Source: Rhodohalobacter sp. 614A (GTDB taxonomy: Bacteria; Bacteroidota; Rhodothermia; Balneolales; Balneolaceae). From it: 64,000 nt of DNA. The notes under the pieces were generated by a model. The model was given only the letters and a program-made list of their open reading frames with translations. It was not told the origin of the DNA and searched no databases. Position numbers and translations under genes: made by a program. The stretch is taken from assembly GCF_021462415.1 (NCBI RefSeq), contig NZ_JAKEDS010000002.1, positions 1-64,000 of the forward strand, in the 5' to 3' direction. This document shows positions 55,957 through 62,016 of this stretch, piece after piece (position 1 is the stretch's first letter; each line of letters begins with the position of its first letter).

Positions 55957-57159
55957 TTATGTACACCCGCCCTGAACTCTTTTGATCTCTTTTTTCGGTG
56001 GCTGCAAGCTGTTTTTGAGGCGTTCTTCAATCTCTGTAAGTCTTTCGGCAGCTTCTATGTGGAATTTGTAACGGGTCAGGTCGGTTTTGCTAACATCTCC
56101 AATCGGTTCAACAGCATTAAAAATAACTTCACGAAATTCCACTACAGGTGATTCCAAAATTACCGGATCGGTATCACCGAGTTCGCGAGCTAAAAATGCT
56201 GCTTTGTAGACTTTATCCATATCATCCCCGATAAAAACGTTGGTTTTATACGGCTGCTTCAACATCGAACGCCATTCGCGGTTATAAAGATTTTCGAAGG
56301 GAACATTGATCGCAGCCGGGATGGAAGCTTCTTTATATGCCGTAGTGTCCCGAATGTCGATAATGTTGAATTCATGGACATTATTCATGATCTCAAAAGC
56401 CAGCTTGTCGATAGTCATTGTATCGAAATTGTTCGATACTTCAGAGATCTGTGCCGAATCCATTTTGGAAAGTGTATACTCCTTTTTGTCGGGAGTCATC
56501 CAGATAAGAGTGATGATTACAATAGGAAGGACTGCTGTGAGGCTGTATTTGATTTTTCGATCTCGCGGTATTTCAATTGTTTTTCCGTTGACTTTATCCT
56601 CAATTTTTGAGGTCAGATAGAATGCAAGAAGAGCAATGATTGTCAGGAGAATGCCGAAAAATTCAGGTGATATTCCCAGCATGTCATTCATCGTCAGCGG
56701 CCCCATATTTGTAGAATTAAACAGGGTTTCCAGCATAGGATACCCTTCCGTGAAAGCTAAAATCCCAAGGATTGAACCTCCTACAAAAGCAAAGGCATCA
56801 ATACGCCCGACCGCCAGTGCACAAAGGCTGGTTCCCGGACAAAATCCCCCCAGAATAAATCCAACGCCCATGATGGCTCCGCCCACCAGTGCCGACCAAA
56901 GAAAAGTTGGATTGATATAAATCACATTTAAATCAAGCAGGCCGAGATGGGCAAACAGCAGCACACCAACCATTGCCGTAACTCCAGCCGTAAAAAAGAC
57001 TTTGAGTACGGTAAAATCATATCCATAAAAAAGGCCGACGAGTTTTCGGGAAGAGGAAAAACCGGCCTGTTCAAGCGCAAACCCAAAAGCAATCCCAACG
57101 ATGAATGCTACAACAAGGTTAAATTCAGAACTCAATATTTCGGGGACAAGTGGTGCCAT
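55957..57159 (-). CDS. YeeE/YedE sulfur transporter fused to a Cys-less rhodanese-like domain
   Basis: A 400-residue fusion. Residues 1-215 are a YeeE/YedE-type membrane part with the conserved GGFCPGTSLCALAVGR (cysteines in the thiosulfate path of characterised YeeE) and GFALEQAGFSSSRKL. After another helix comes a rhodanese-like domain (about 245-345: FNIIDIRDTTAYKEASIPAAINVP). At the place of the catalytic Cys loop it reads TNVFIGDDMDKVY, so sulfur transfer by the usual persulfide is not possible. The chain ends QGGCT. It is the last gene of the octaheme cytochrome operon, 9 bases after the shorter YeeE gene. Import or sensing of thiosulfate-like sulfur is inferred. Confidence 0.9.
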   Translation of the reverse strand: MAPLVPEILSSEFNLVVAFIVGIAFGFALEQAGFSSSRKLVGLFYGYDFTVLKVFFTAGVTAMVGVLLFAHLGLLDLNVIYINPTFLWSALVGGAIMGVGFILGGFCPGTSLCALAVGRIDAFAFVGGSILGILAFTEGYPMLETLFNSTNMGPLTMNDMLGISPEFFGILLTIIALLAFYLTSKIEDKVNGKTIEIPRDRKIKYSLTAVLPIVIITLIWMTPDKKEYTLSKMDSAQISEVSNNFDTMTIDKLAFEIMNNVHEFNIIDIRDTTAYKEASIPAAINVPFENLYNREWRSMLKQPYKTNVFIGDDMDKVYKAAFLARELGDTDPVILESPVVEFREVIFNAVEPIGDVSKTDLTRYKFHIEAAERLTEIEERLKNSLQPPKKEIKRVQGGCT

Positions 57160-57168
57160 GTTAACCTC

Positions 57169-57687
57169 CTACGAAATCCATAATTTTCTGAAAAACCAGG
57201 CAACCATATAAGCCGAGCCAAAGATGGCGAACATCGTAATAATTCCTCCAAACGACATTACCGCCATTCCACTCAAGGCTGAACCGCTTGTGCATCCGCG
57301 GCCGAGTTGAGATCCCAATCCAAAAAGTGCGCCGCCCAAAACGGCGAAGATAATTCTTGTTTTGCTTTGGATTCTCGGTCCCTTTTCAAGTTTGAGTGCA
57401 ATCCTGTTGGAAATCACCCCGGAGAAAAATGCGCCTATTAGCACCCCGATAATTTCATAAAACAGCCAGGTATTCAGCGGACTTCCGGGATTCGATTGCT
57501 GGTAGTTCGCGTAATATTCAGTGTTGTTCCAGTGTTCGGGAGCAACCTGTTCTACACCATATAGAGCCACAGCTTTAACGCCGCCGCTGGCCCCAAGTCC
57601 ACGGCCGGTTACATAAATTGTGGCCAGTAATACAAATCCTAAAAAAAGGCCGGCCAGGTATGGATTCATATACGCTTTTGGTTTCAT
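57169..57687 (-). CDS. YeeE/YedE family sulfur transporter, half-size
   Basis: A 172-residue membrane protein with about four helices. The C-terminal motif LGSQLGRGCTSGSALSGMAVMSFGG contains the GRGCTSG signature with the conserved Cys that passes thiosulfate in the family. In other bacteria two half-size YeeE/YedE proteins work together; here the partner half is encoded next in the operon. An extracytoplasmic loop (GVEQVAPEHWNNTEYYANYQQSNPGSP) lies between the first two helices. The start overlaps the cytochrome b stop by 4 bases. Confidence 0.92.
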   Translation of the reverse strand: MKPKAYMNPYLAGLFLGFVLLATIYVTGRGLGASGGVKAVALYGVEQVAPEHWNNTEYYANYQQSNPGSPLNTWLFYEIIGVLIGAFFSGVISNRIALKLEKGPRIQSKTRIIFAVLGGALFGLGSQLGRGCTSGSALSGMAVMSFGGIITMFAIFGSAYMVAWFFRKLWIS

Positions 57688-58370
57688 AATTCACCTCCTT
57701 CTGTTGCAATGACTTCAGCTTTTGGTTCCGACGGCGTTTCATCCTCACTTTCATCTGATTTCGTTTCAAGCTCTTCGTACCCGGTTACCATGGCTCTTAT
57801 GTTGGAGGTGGGACGATCTCCGGTGGTTGTCATATAAACATGCAGGATAATGAACGCAACCAGGATAAAAGCTCCGAATGTATGCCAGGCAGCAATGACG
57901 GATAAATCAATATCGCTTATGATTACCACATCGTTGGCGTTAATGGTTTTGTGAAACATGTACAACAGTCCGGAGAGAACCACAATGGGCACAATCAAGA
58001 TTTTGAAGGCCAGGTATGTGAAAATTTGAAGAGGATTCAGTTTCTGCCAGCGTCCATGGAGTGTGGGATGAGGCTCGTTCCGAAACATGCCCACGGTGTA
58101 GTATCGAAGCTGTGCACGAATATTTTTCAAGGTTGGGATATAATTACGCCACTCATCCGTTGTAAAATGCCAGAAGATGGCGAGACCAATCAGTAGCAGA
58201 AGTGCATAGGCCGCATAACGATGAAACATGACGGCTTTCTCAAACCCAAAAATGTGGATAGAATCGTGTACTTCAAACCCTGTAACGGCAAGAAACAGGA
58301 TTAGTGCTGCTTGTCCCCAGTGCCAAAACCGCTCAAACCGTTTATATTTTTTGATCTTCTTCATCGTCAA
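57684..58370 (-). CDS. Cytochrome b, membrane electron-transfer subunit
   Basis: A 228-residue membrane protein of the thiosulfate-reductase/hydrogenase b-type cytochrome family. Four helices carry likely heme ligands His17 (FERFWHWGQ), His50 (VMFHRYAAY), His163 (AAWHTFGAF) and His177 (FIILHVYMTTTGDRP). The C-terminus after the last helix is acidic and low-complexity (ETKSDESEDETPSEPKAE). It should pass electrons between menaquinol and the octaheme cytochrome encoded just upstream, whose frame it overlaps by 29 bases. The YeeE gene is coupled to its end. Confidence 0.9.
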   Translation of the reverse strand: MTMKKIKKYKRFERFWHWGQAALILFLAVTGFEVHDSIHIFGFEKAVMFHRYAAYALLLLIGLAIFWHFTTDEWRNYIPTLKNIRAQLRYYTVGMFRNEPHPTLHGRWQKLNPLQIFTYLAFKILIVPIVVLSGLLYMFHKTINANDVVIISDIDLSVIAAWHTFGAFILVAFIILHVYMTTTGDRPTSNIRAMVTGYEELETKSDESEDETPSEPKAEVIATEGGEL

Positions 58371-59985
58371 AATCTTTATAGTGAGTCATCTCAAGGTCTT
58401 TTTCGCTGCGGATATGCGTTACAATTCTGAGTGAGCCGTGAATCATCACACCAAAAACAGTAAGCAGAATCAGCCAGTTGCCGAATGAATCAAGGAAGTG
58501 ATTACGATCTCGCCCGGGAATGTAAAATCCTGTGAGGTTTTGAAGACGTCCGTCGTTTCGGGTATGACAATCCTGGCATTGCAGGGCACCCGTAGCAGGA
58601 GCCACCATATGATTGATGGGCCAATACATTTCGGTTTCAATAAATGTATGTTTACCACTATAGGGAAGGCCCACTTCCCTCATTCCGGCTTCGGCGGCAG
58701 TGGACCAGTCAAAATCCTGCCAATAGGCACTGTCTCCTACGGCTTCTCCATACAATTTCGGCTGGATAAGTGTCAGGTACTCAGTATCAAAAATCTGGTC
58801 GCCACGGTGAACTTTTACGGGTACAATTTTTGAGTTCGGATCCTCATGGCTTCCTAATAATTTATTCACTTGAACCGGTCCGGCGGTAGTATCCACTTTA
58901 TCTCCCAAAAGATAATGCTGTGCTTTTCCATTGAACCAAACGTATTCGGGCACAAGATCAGATCCCCATTCAAACGAACCTTTAATGGAGAGGTAGGTGT
59001 GCTGACCTGTGGAATCATCTACTTCGTAAGGATCGCCATTTTCCAACATGCCTGCATCCGACCATTTCCATGTCAGTTTCGTGGGATTTTCTTTGGCATA
59101 TGTTGGAATATGACAGGTTTGGCAGGAAACCCTCGCTCCGTGAATATTCAGCATTTCTGAGAGGTGAGGTGTATTTGTATGGCAATCTTCGCAAAACAGC
59201 CGGTTCACATTTTCGGAAGAAACCGAATACATTTTCCCTTTAATCTGGTGATTTTCCGCGGTATGGCAGTCCACGCAGCTCATATTCAAACCGGTTACAG
59301 CCATATGAACATCCAGTTCACGGTCAGCCGAATAAAGCGCTTCTTCCAGGTCCCCGTGTTTTACATTATTTCCGCCGCCGCCATAGAAGTGACAAGTGCC
59401 GCAGTTACTTATGATGGGCCTCCCAACACTTTTTGCTACGGCTGTCAGATCAACACCTTCCGCCGGGAAACCAGCCGATCCGGAGCCTTTTATATACTCT
59501 TCGCTGTTATCGTGGCAGGAAAGGCAATCCACATTCGTAGGATCCATGAAATTGAAATCTTCAACACTGTTCAATCCAAAACCGGTGTGACATTTTGCGC
59601 AGGCTACTTCATTCCCAGCCACGCTGATGCAGTAATTATTCAAAGCATTTCTTTTGCCCAGCGCATGGATTCCGCGCCCCTCAATGTAGGAGATGCGTTC
59701 CCAATTCCAGTGGTTCGATTCCATGACTTCGTTATGCCGTTCATTATGGCAACTAATGCAAGCTTCGGTGACTTCCTGGGGAGTGGTAAACATCCGGTCC
59801 AATTCAGGAAATTTTGAGTGATCCACCGGAGGTTTTGGAACCTTGGCGTACCGTATTCTAAGTTCTTCAAGCGCAAGGTTAGGCTCAGGTTGGCGGTAAT
59901 TCATTTGAATAATGGCGATGACAAGGGCCGTCACAACCAGGATCAACAGGAGGTATAACTTTTGTTTGTGGTCAGATATACTCAT
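58342..59985 (-). CDS. Octaheme c-type cytochrome, tetrathionate reductase (OTR) family
   Basis: A 547-residue multiheme cytochrome with eight CXXCH motifs: Cys76, 129, 154, 195, 237, 265, 288 and 470. NYCISVAGNEVACAKCH and the wide gap before the eighth heme are typical of the octaheme tetrathionate reductase family known from Shewanella, which in vitro reduces tetrathionate, nitrite and hydroxylamine. An N-terminal helix (10-28) anchors it, and unlike the soluble Shewanella protein there is also a C-terminal helix (about 499-517). It heads the operon with cytochrome b and two YeeE/YedE proteins, which points to respiration with a sulfur oxyanion. A GGAGAG site lies before the ATG. Confidence 0.93.
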   Translation of the reverse strand: MSISDHKQKLYLLLILVVTALVIAIIQMNYRQPEPNLALEELRIRYAKVPKPPVDHSKFPELDRMFTTPQEVTEACISCHNERHNEVMESNHWNWERISYIEGRGIHALGKRNALNNYCISVAGNEVACAKCHTGFGLNSVEDFNFMDPTNVDCLSCHDNSEEYIKGSGSAGFPAEGVDLTAVAKSVGRPIISNCGTCHFYGGGGNNVKHGDLEEALYSADRELDVHMAVTGLNMSCVDCHTAENHQIKGKMYSVSSENVNRLFCEDCHTNTPHLSEMLNIHGARVSCQTCHIPTYAKENPTKLTWKWSDAGMLENGDPYEVDDSTGQHTYLSIKGSFEWGSDLVPEYVWFNGKAQHYLLGDKVDTTAGPVQVNKLLGSHEDPNSKIVPVKVHRGDQIFDTEYLTLIQPKLYGEAVGDSAYWQDFDWSTAAEAGMREVGLPYSGKHTFIETEMYWPINHMVAPATGALQCQDCHTRNDGRLQNLTGFYIPGRDRNHFLDSFGNWLILLTVFGVMIHGSLRIVTHIRSEKDLEMTHYKDFDDEEDQKI

Positions 59986-60306: not shown

Positions 60307-62016
60307 ATGGTAGAAGGAACATCACTGTTGTTCATAGCTTTTTTGGCCGGGGTCATCTTTGCGGGTGTATATCTATATTTTTTCTATGGGTTGAATGATT
60401 GGTGGAAGAAAGTATTTAAGTCCCTGCTGTTTGTTGCCGCTTTGATCTTTTTATATGGATTTATCTATCAGTGGGGAATGGCAACTTTTGAGGGTTTTGA
60501 AAAAAGTTATATCCATTCCATTCAGGTAGTTATTGAGTCGATTACTACATCCGGTTATGGAGGCGATGCTCCCTGGAAGAGCGATTTTATGAATATTTTT
60601 GTGGTGTGGATGAATCTGACGGGAGTCATTCTGGTTTTCCTGGCATTTCCGCTTTTTGTTTTTCCGATGATTCGTGAAGCCATTCAACCCCATCCTCCCG
60701 AATCGGTTAACCTGGAAGATCATGTTATTATTTGCTCAATCTCAAAAAGAGTATCCATCCTGCAAGATGAGCTTCATTCAAAATCCATCCCGTATGTGAT
60801 TATTGATCTGGATGAAGATGCCGTTCTGGATTTAAATCAAAATGGAACGTTGGCTCTGTGGGGAAATCCTTCTGACAGGGATGTATTGGAATCCGCCAAT
60901 ATTGAAAAAGCCCGGGCGCTGGTGGCGGATATGGACGACGAAAATAATGCTCTGATTACACTTACAGCACGTTCGCTCCGGGATGATCTGAAAATTCTGA
61001 GTGTAGCCACAGAAGAAAATGTGATTGCCTATCATCAATATGCCGGAGCAACGAATGTGATTTTGCCAAGACGCATTTTAGGGCAGAGCTTGGCAGAGAG
61101 AGTGATTGTTTCTCTTTCAAAAGATTTACAGGGAGTTACTCAATTAAGCGATGAACTGGAACTGACCGAAATTCTGATAGAACCCAAGAGTGATATTGTC
61201 GGCAAAAGTATCCAGGAATCGAAAATCAGGCAGCGGTTTGGAGTTAACATTATTGGCGCCTGGTTTTGGGGCAATTTTGTTGCCAATCCAAAGCCCAACC
61301 AGGTGATCAACGAACATACCATTCTTCTTCTGGCGGGGCCTCATGATAAACTGACGGAATTCAGAACCAAAACAACGTCGAAAGTGCATGAAGTTGAAGG
61401 CCCCATTATTGTTGCCGGTTTGGGAGTTGTAGGACGAACCATCGCGGCGCTTTTTCAAGAAAACGACATTCAGTTTACAGTTGTGGATATTGATGAAAAA
61501 GAAGGGGTGGACGTTATTGGCGATATTACCGAGGAGGAGATTTTAAAAGAAGCCGGAATTGAAAATGCATCGACCATTATTCTTGCCGTTAATGATGACC
61601 GAACGGCGATCTTTACAACACTTGTTCTCAAAAAAGTAAATCCCGAAATCGAAATCATCGCAAGAGTAAGTGATGTGGAAAATATCGGCAAATTGTACCA
61701 GGCCGGCGCCGATTACGTACTTTCCCTGCCAACCGTTTCTGGACGGATGCTATTCTCCATTTTGGTTGAAGATGATGAAGTTCTGTCCGCAAATACCATG
61801 TATGAGGTTGTGAGAATCAAGGCTCCGGAACTGGATGGGAAAAGCCTTGAAGGAGCAAATATTCGCGCTGAAACCGGATGCACCATTGTAGCAGTAGAGC
61901 GCAACGGGCATTTGGTGGCTGAACTTGGCCCATCTTTCGAACTCCACGAGGACGATCAACTTATTGTTGTTGGAAGTGACGAGACCATTAATGCGTTCAG
62001 GAAAAAGTACAGTTAG
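60307..62016 (+). CDS. Two-pore-helix K+ channel with tandem RCK (TrkA) domains
   Basis: A 569-residue channel. Three hydrophobic segments in the first 120 residues frame a pore loop reading SITTSGYGGDAPW, a variant of the TVGYGD filter also seen in some halophile channels. Two RCK modules follow: the first (about 135-350) has a degenerate nucleotide motif (IICSISKRV instead of GXGXXG), the second (about 365-565) an intact GLGVVGRTIAALFQENDIQFTVVDID, each with a TrkA_C part. It should gate K+ flow in response to a nucleotide or ion. It diverges from the octaheme operon. The cyclic-di-AMP phosphodiesterase in this window could be functionally related. Confidence 0.92.
   Translation: MVEGTSLLFIAFLAGVIFAGVYLYFFYGLNDWWKKVFKSLLFVAALIFLYGFIYQWGMATFEGFEKSYIHSIQVVIESITTSGYGGDAPWKSDFMNIFVVWMNLTGVILVFLAFPLFVFPMIREAIQPHPPESVNLEDHVIICSISKRVSILQDELHSKSIPYVIIDLDEDAVLDLNQNGTLALWGNPSDRDVLESANIEKARALVADMDDENNALITLTARSLRDDLKILSVATEENVIAYHQYAGATNVILPRRILGQSLAERVIVSLSKDLQGVTQLSDELELTEILIEPKSDIVGKSIQESKIRQRFGVNIIGAWFWGNFVANPKPNQVINEHTILLLAGPHDKLTEFRTKTTSKVHEVEGPIIVAGLGVVGRTIAALFQENDIQFTVVDIDEKEGVDVIGDITEEEILKEAGIENASTIILAVNDDRTAIFTTLVLKKVNPEIEIIARVSDVENIGKLYQAGADYVLSLPTVSGRMLFSILVEDDEVLSANTMYEVVRIKAPELDGKSLEGANIRAETGCTIVAVERNGHLVAELGPSFELHEDDQLIVVGSDETINAFRKKYS

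Follow-up and report, generated by a model that had tools for sequence, protein, structure and literature searches.

What does an octaheme tetrathionate reductase (OTR) do when its gene stands in one operon with genes for YeeE-type sulfur transporters? The question is raised by a locus of Rhodohalobacter sp. 614A, contained in the first 64,000 nucleotides of contig NZ_JAKEDS010000002.1 (the window). Four genes, all on the minus strand, occupy window positions 59985-55957, which confirms the coordinates given in an earlier note on this DNA. They encode an OTR, a cytochrome b and two YeeE/YedE-type proteins, here called YE2 and YE1. With a probability that we put at roughly 60%, the operon specifies a periplasmic sulfur reductase that is driven by menaquinol and equipped with a sulfur hand-off channel of its own. 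Tetrathionate would be the first-choice substrate, and the thiol of a C-terminal Gly-Gly-Cys (GGC) on YE1 would pass sulfur to Cys132 of YE2. The four genes are:

58342..59985 (59985-58342), minus strand: OTR, 547 aa, with TIGR04315 and 1sp3 matches, eight CXXCH motifs, an N-terminal hydrophobic segment and a C-terminal membrane anchor
57684..58370, minus strand: cytochrome b, 228 aa, PF01292, a membrane protein of the cytochrome b561 / Ni_hydr_CYTB type
57169..57687, minus strand: YE2, 172 aa, PF04143, a PmpA-like C-terminal half of a YeeE/TsuA transporter
55957..57159, minus strand: YE1, 400 aa, PF04143 and PF00581, a PmpB-like N-terminal half of a YeeE transporter, extended by one more (sixth) helix, a rhodanese-like domain and the terminal GGC

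The genes for OTR and cytochrome b overlap by 29 bp and those for cytochrome b and YE2 by 4 bp. YE2 and YE1 are separated by a 9-bp gap, so the tightly overlapping order described in the earlier note holds for the first two junctions but not for the third.

Gene order was surveyed in 394 genomes of the phylum, counting OTRs that scored over the TIGR04315 cut-off. OTR was found in 54 of these genomes, at 59 places, and wide flanks were covered for all but ten of the places. At 33 of them, in 33 genomes (33/394), OTR, cytochrome b, YE2 and YE1 lay on one strand. With duplicates and named genera included, order and strand were identical in 39/39 loci that hold all four genes, and hence the four-gene order is not a product of chance. 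The earlier note had staked its proposal on conservation of this order, and on that count the proposal stands. Among named genera, the order is seen in Thermophagus, Carboxylicivirga and Melioribacter. The remaining 26 places were of several kinds. Thirteen belong to one family of small genomes, and the three of these with full flanks hold only an anchored OTR and cytochrome b, as does one further place (L047). Ten encode a soluble OTR and none of the partner genes. At the last two (L082 and L083) an OTR without a C-terminal anchor directly precedes YE2 and YE1, and cytochrome b is missing; the N terminus of the L083 protein is lipobox-like. Within the order to which the window's genome belongs, OTR is sporadic (over the cut-off in 3/59 genomes), which suggests transfer or loss. 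Outside the phylum, the context of OTR was covered in five plasmid records. A Bacteroidales metagenome-assembled genome from Zodletone (L008) carries a pair of OTR genes; behind each lies a gene for a cytochrome b of greater length (382-383 aa), and the available stretch has no YeeE genes.

The cassette of YE2 and YE1 is also found at places without OTR. A profile search with YE1 yielded 13 such loci, which were examined. In 11/13, YE2, YE1 and a degenerate rhodanese come after a molybdoenzyme operon that encodes a PhsA/PsrA-like catalytic subunit, an NrfD/PsrC membrane subunit and, where it occurs, a Fe-S protein with four clusters. Representatives of these loci were run through the family libraries, and the others were judged by sequence likeness and gene size. 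For the three catalytic subunits tested, the best NCBIfam match was the thiosulfate reductase PhsA, at 463-536 bits with a cut-off of 694. The associated rhodaneses (L115-L121 and L123-L126) lack the catalytic Cys and end in KKKKxEGC or GGC; in L116, two such degenerate rhodaneses with GGC/EGC ends lie in tandem. Of the other two loci, L114 is too short a stretch to classify and L122 has no reductase nearby.

The two kinds of operon also share regulators. A Cys-rich MerR gene adjoins OTR in 9/35 four-gene loci (directly upstream in L049-L051, L053, L055, L057, L059, L060 and L075), and its product is 44-69% identical to a MerR encoded upstream of a PhsA-type operon. The C-terminal cysteines of this regulator could sense sulfane sulfur. 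In seven other four-gene loci a MarR gene lies directly upstream, with 36-41% identity to one near a PhsA-type locus. Neither gene is found directly upstream of the window's own operon. Thus, the OTR–cytochrome b pair and the PhsA/PsrA-type complex exchange places beside the same cassette and regulator family, and the catalytic and electron-transfer unit alone differs: PhsABC and PsrABC use molybdenum/Fe-S catalysis and an NrfD subunit, whereas hemes and a cytochrome b serve here. Since this slot, with the same regulator, is taken by a PhsA/PsrA-type enzyme in related bacteria, OTR probably respires sulfur compounds. The link to sulfur drawn in the earlier note is strengthened by this second use of the cassette.

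The pairing of OTR with the cassette probably arose at least twice independently, judging from the trees. When all OTR-linked rows were forced into one clade, the tree was rejected on YE1 and YE2 together (AU p 0.0026; this grouping was chosen for the test in knowledge of the first trees). A single origin is therefore rejected on the joint alignment, but not on YE2 alone (p 0.083). The L082/L083 cassette groups with the PhsA-type cassettes, and the L082/L083 OTR groups with the soluble OTRs (SH-aLRT 97), although their stem branch is long. A single clade, weakly supported (83), unites the OTRs of the four-gene loci. In the OTR tree the label soluble also covers the anchored OTRs of loci without YeeE genes, and conclusions were drawn from the sequences themselves. 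Two independent joinings favour a shared function rather than an inherited neighbourhood.

OTR matches all of TIGR04315 (model positions 1-440 of 440) with 571 bits at a cut-off of 375, and aligns along its full length with the Shewanella oneidensis OTR (1sp3, E 2.6e-123). It has eight CXXCH heme motifs and retains the equivalents of Cys64 and Lys153, which places it within the octaheme tetrathionate reductase family. The following positions are concerned:

59629..59631, minus strand: Cys119, which falls on Cys64 of S. oneidensis OTR in the alignment to 1sp3 and is kept in at least 95% of 68 homologues
59359..59361, minus strand: Lys209, aligned with residue 153 (Lys153) of 1sp3, which we take to be the distal ligand of the catalytic heme (Mowat 2004), and kept in at least 95% of homologues
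58429..58482, minus strand: predicted C-terminal transmembrane anchor, approximately residues 502-519

The C terminus, where the earlier note had placed an additional anchor, consists of a hydrophobic helix followed by a charged tail. This helix is present in every four-gene OTR and in none of the soluble OTRs of 455-478 aa. The S. oneidensis enzyme, a periplasmic protein, can reduce tetrathionate, nitrite and hydroxylamine and has the tetraheme cytochrome STC as an interaction partner (PMC4484225). In contrast to it, the OTR described here is anchored at its C terminus, and its operon supplies a cytochrome b and a sulfur-channel cassette. The cytochrome b matches PF01292 (E 9.5e-26, 91 bits, cut-off 30) and conserves H17, H35, H50, H163 and H177 as likely heme ligands. 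Its best NCBIfam match, below cut-off, is the thiosulfate reductase cytochrome b PRK15006. A quinol-type cytochrome b next to an anchored octaheme reductase fits the respiratory module that had been proposed. The same two-gene reductase unit of OTR and cytochrome b was proposed from the genome of Thermosulfurimonas dismutans (TDIS_1882-1883, PMC4911364); YeeE halves, a rhodanese domain and a GGC tail are absent from the description of that pair. Distant octaheme relatives of OTR are encoded at L054:7952-9445 and L086:7757-9247. They score 117-125 bits, under the TIGR04315 cut-off, lack the VKHGD lysine motif and possibly form a separate family.

The two YeeE/YedE proteins both match PF04143, but they are probably not the two separate sulfur transporters that the earlier note had seen in them. 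Of the 310 positions of the family, YE1 covers 12-196 and YE2 covers 177-308. Two complete transporters are excluded by these complementary halves, and YE2 and YE1 most likely form one split, heterodimeric transporter, since the arrangement is that of PmpA/PmpB. PmpA and PmpB are split YeeE proteins for which a heterodimer has been proposed (PMC11582611). As in PmpA/PmpB, each protein has one PF04143 half and one conserved Cys, at the positions of TsuA Cys293 and Cys91:

57292..57294, minus strand: YE2 Cys132, equivalent to TsuA Cys293 by direct alignment with 6leo and invariant in 20 homologues
56839..56841, minus strand: YE1 Cys107, in the motif GG[FY]CPGTS, equivalent to TsuA Cys91 by this motif and invariant

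The role of the Cys91 position has been described (PMC11582611). The alignment of YE2 with TsuA (6leo, E 1.7e-9) covers the final hundred residues of the latter. A TsuA-type thiosulfate transporter (NF052577 / NF041049) was nevertheless rejected: the best score was 47 bits against a cut-off of 400, the sequence is split in two proteins, and the TsuA Cys22 position is occupied by a residue other than Cys in YE1. The pair differs from PmpA/PmpB in that YE1 adds helices, a degenerate rhodanese domain and the C-terminal GGC, and YE2 is longer than PmpA (172 aa versus ~130). Import followed by transfer to a TusA-like acceptor is unsupported. TusA was not found in the window's genome and is not enriched in four-gene genomes (10/33 vs 78/361 others, p 0.28). 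YeeD, the partner of YeeE, belongs to the TusA family (PMC11073785).

The earlier note was silent on the C-terminal part of YE1, which holds three further elements:

56494..56547, minus strand: sixth transmembrane helix of YE1, approximately residues 205-222, predicted from loop charge bias to lead the rhodanese domain into the periplasm
56125..56418, minus strand: rhodanese-like domain, residues 248-345, PF00581 E 1.5e-5, 3o3w Z 12.8, no catalytic Cys
55963..55971, minus strand: C-terminal Gly-Gly-Cys, residues 397-399, with 98% column identity compared to 41% in the preceding linker

The PF00581 match lies above the cut-off, and in an AlphaFold2 model the domain has a rhodanese fold, with 3o3w as the best PDB match (Z 12.8, rmsd 2.6 A over 103 residues). 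YE1 and YE2 were modelled from 6-sequence alignments and the models are confident in the rhodanese part only; TsuA was not in the fold-match list, and nothing was concluded from this. An active rhodanese sulfurtransferase was rejected, as the fold is present but the active-site loop reads NVFIGDDMDK and the catalytic Cys is absent in every aligned homologue. The GGC end itself was found in 38/38 homologues whose C terminus is intact, and no more than one residue follows the Cys; L082 and L083 have Gly-Leu-Cys in its place. The 25 residues ahead of the motif form a Lys-rich linker with a mean net charge of +4.7, which is disordered in the model. Among 821 other open reading frames (ORFs) of the loci, three had Gly-Cys ends, and all three were cassette rhodaneses missed by the search, so that the background of GGC-type ends in unrelated ORFs is 0/821. 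In L058 (10814-12006), YE1 is present as two ORFs, a YeeE part and a rhodanese part, by a natural split or a frameshift.

Loop charges argue for a periplasmic position of the rhodanese domain and tail. In 37 homologues, loops 1 and 5 of YE1 are rich in Lys/Arg, and the N terminus and loop 2 are nearly free of them. In agreement with this placement, the rhodanese of the related Phs-type loci is encoded by an ORF of its own and starts with a hydrophobic helix. The tail resembles the sulfur carrier SoxY, a periplasmic protein with a C-terminal GGCGG arm on a flexible tail: YE1, too, has a Gly-Gly-Cys at the extreme C terminus of a flexible tail, presumably in the periplasm. It differs from SoxY in that the arm sits on a rhodanese-like domain, not a SoxY fold, is fused to a membrane transporter and has at most one residue after the Cys. 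The four-gene operon has no Sox genes, and no soxZ-like gene was found within it.

These features can be combined into a working mechanism. The cytochrome b would oxidise quinol and pass electrons to the hemes of the membrane-anchored OTR, which would reductively cleave an S-S bond of a soluble periplasmic sulfur compound. The pair most likely stands in for a Phs/Psr complex and uses quinol to reduce the S–S bonds of tetrathionate, polysulfide or thiosulfate. Three points favour tetrathionate: its ready reaction with thiols, its reduction by OTR and a potential suiting menaquinol (approximately +0.2 V); polysulfide or another polythionate would come next. YE2 and YE1 together would form a single PmpAB-type channel, and the dead rhodanese may act as a periplasmic platform for the flexible, positively charged tail. 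We infer that, near OTR, the single C-terminal thiol of YE1 accepts a thiosulfate or sulfane-sulfur group. This proposal includes the covalent loading of the tail and the direction in which sulfur moves. By analogy with the GGCGG arm of SoxY, the Cys arm probably hands its sulfur to the PmpAB-like channel, namely to YE2 Cys132 at the periplasmic channel mouth, from where it would pass through the split channel.

Several observations weigh against this mechanism. The substrate of the operon's OTR is assigned by inference, and the PhsA-like proteins at the exchanged loci score under the PhsA equivalog cut-off, which makes their own substrate an assignment of the same kind. OTR does not need the cassette, since OTR with cytochrome b and without YeeE genes exists in other lineages (L044-L047, Paracoccus L092 and Photobacterium L093). 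The absence of TusA, the usual cytoplasmic sulfur acceptor, from the window's genome means that a different acceptor, or no import, has to be considered. The membrane parts are poorly modelled by AlphaFold2, and the claims on them do not use the models. Finally, nitrite and hydroxylamine are substrates of S. oneidensis OTR as well (PMC4484225).

This last activity, observed in vitro, opens the way for a reading in which OTR and cytochrome b respire or detoxify nitrite or hydroxylamine and the YeeE genes are unrelated passengers. A family search of the window's genome found no NrfA, so that such a role would be non-redundant there. Passengers are hard to reconcile with an order fixed in 39/39 loci, with the separate joining of an unanchored OTR to the same cassette, and with an exchange partner of the PhsA/PsrA type. 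Moreover, NrfA is already present in 19/33 four-gene genomes compared with 42/361 others (p 4.5e-9, a statistic that ignores relatedness), so many hosts need no OTR for nitrite. Family searches of the window's genome found no NarG and no candidate catalytic subunit of Nap, Psr, Phs or Ttr, only one weak PF00384 match (70 positions, 32 bits). This leaves OTR as its sole candidate sulfur-anion reductase among the families searched, and we regard the nitrogen reading as quite improbable.

Reduction of sulfur compounds by OTR has two further competitors, each of which we consider unlikely, if less so than the nitrogen reading. OTR could run in the oxidative direction, with thiosulfate or sulfide as electron donor and quinone as acceptor; the channel would then deal with the sulfur product. 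An anchored OTR is indeed found in Paracoccus, a thiosulfate oxidiser. YeeE-type SoxT proteins serve sulfur oxidisers (PMC11582611), and heme enzymes such as TsdA are bifunctional (PMC5146829). Yet the exchange partner is closest to the thiosulfate reductase PhsA. The named hosts of the four-gene order (Marinilabiliaceae, Melioribacter) are known as organotrophs, and the conversion of thiosulfate to tetrathionate is uphill with menaquinone (approximately +0.2 V for thiosulfate/tetrathionate versus -0.07 V). Alternatively, the GGC arm might supply the reductase with substrate, as Sud supplies Psr in Wolinella, with a channel that moves sulfane sulfur outward or is a mere docking site, without import. 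A general feeder would be expected to adjoin two unrelated reductases, as the cassette does; the missing and unenriched TusA and a Lys-rich tail that could attract sulfur anions also fit a feeder. Against a feeder stand the channel cysteines at the TsuA Cys91 and Cys293 positions, which are invariant, and the sulfur import by characterised YeeE, SoxT and PmpAB-like proteins (PMC11073785, PMC11582611).

The hand-off proposed for the OTR operon may extend beyond it. At a little under even odds in our judgement, the PmpAB-like channel, dead rhodanese and C-terminal Gly-Cys swinging arm could be a general hand-off cassette for unrelated heme or molybdenum periplasmic reductases, and OTR a bona fide sulfur respiratory enzyme here; the arm would then be a new sulfur carrier convergent with SoxY. 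The pair of OTR and cytochrome b, the PmpAB halves and Psr near sulfurtransferases are already known, and the operon is a new combination of known parts. Caldithrix, for instance, has a Psr operon near two sulfurtransferase genes (PMC5317091). In the open-access literature, no description was found of the four-gene operon, of a dead rhodanese with a GGC tail or of OTR and PhsA-type enzymes exchanging places. That OTR has replaced a PhsA/PsrA-type reductase in an otherwise matching operon, in what look like two independent events, is a pointer to sulfur compounds and makes the question of the natural substrate of OTR directly testable. If the role proposed for the dead rhodanese with its near-invariant Gly-Gly-Cys on a split YeeE is true, it would be a new route along which reactive sulfur leaving a periplasmic enzyme is guided to a membrane channel. 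The operon is spread over many families of a phylum rarely considered in sulfur respiration.

Next to the operon, in divergent orientation and with no operon link seen, window positions 60307-62016 encode a potassium-channel-like protein of 569 aa with two TrkA domains.

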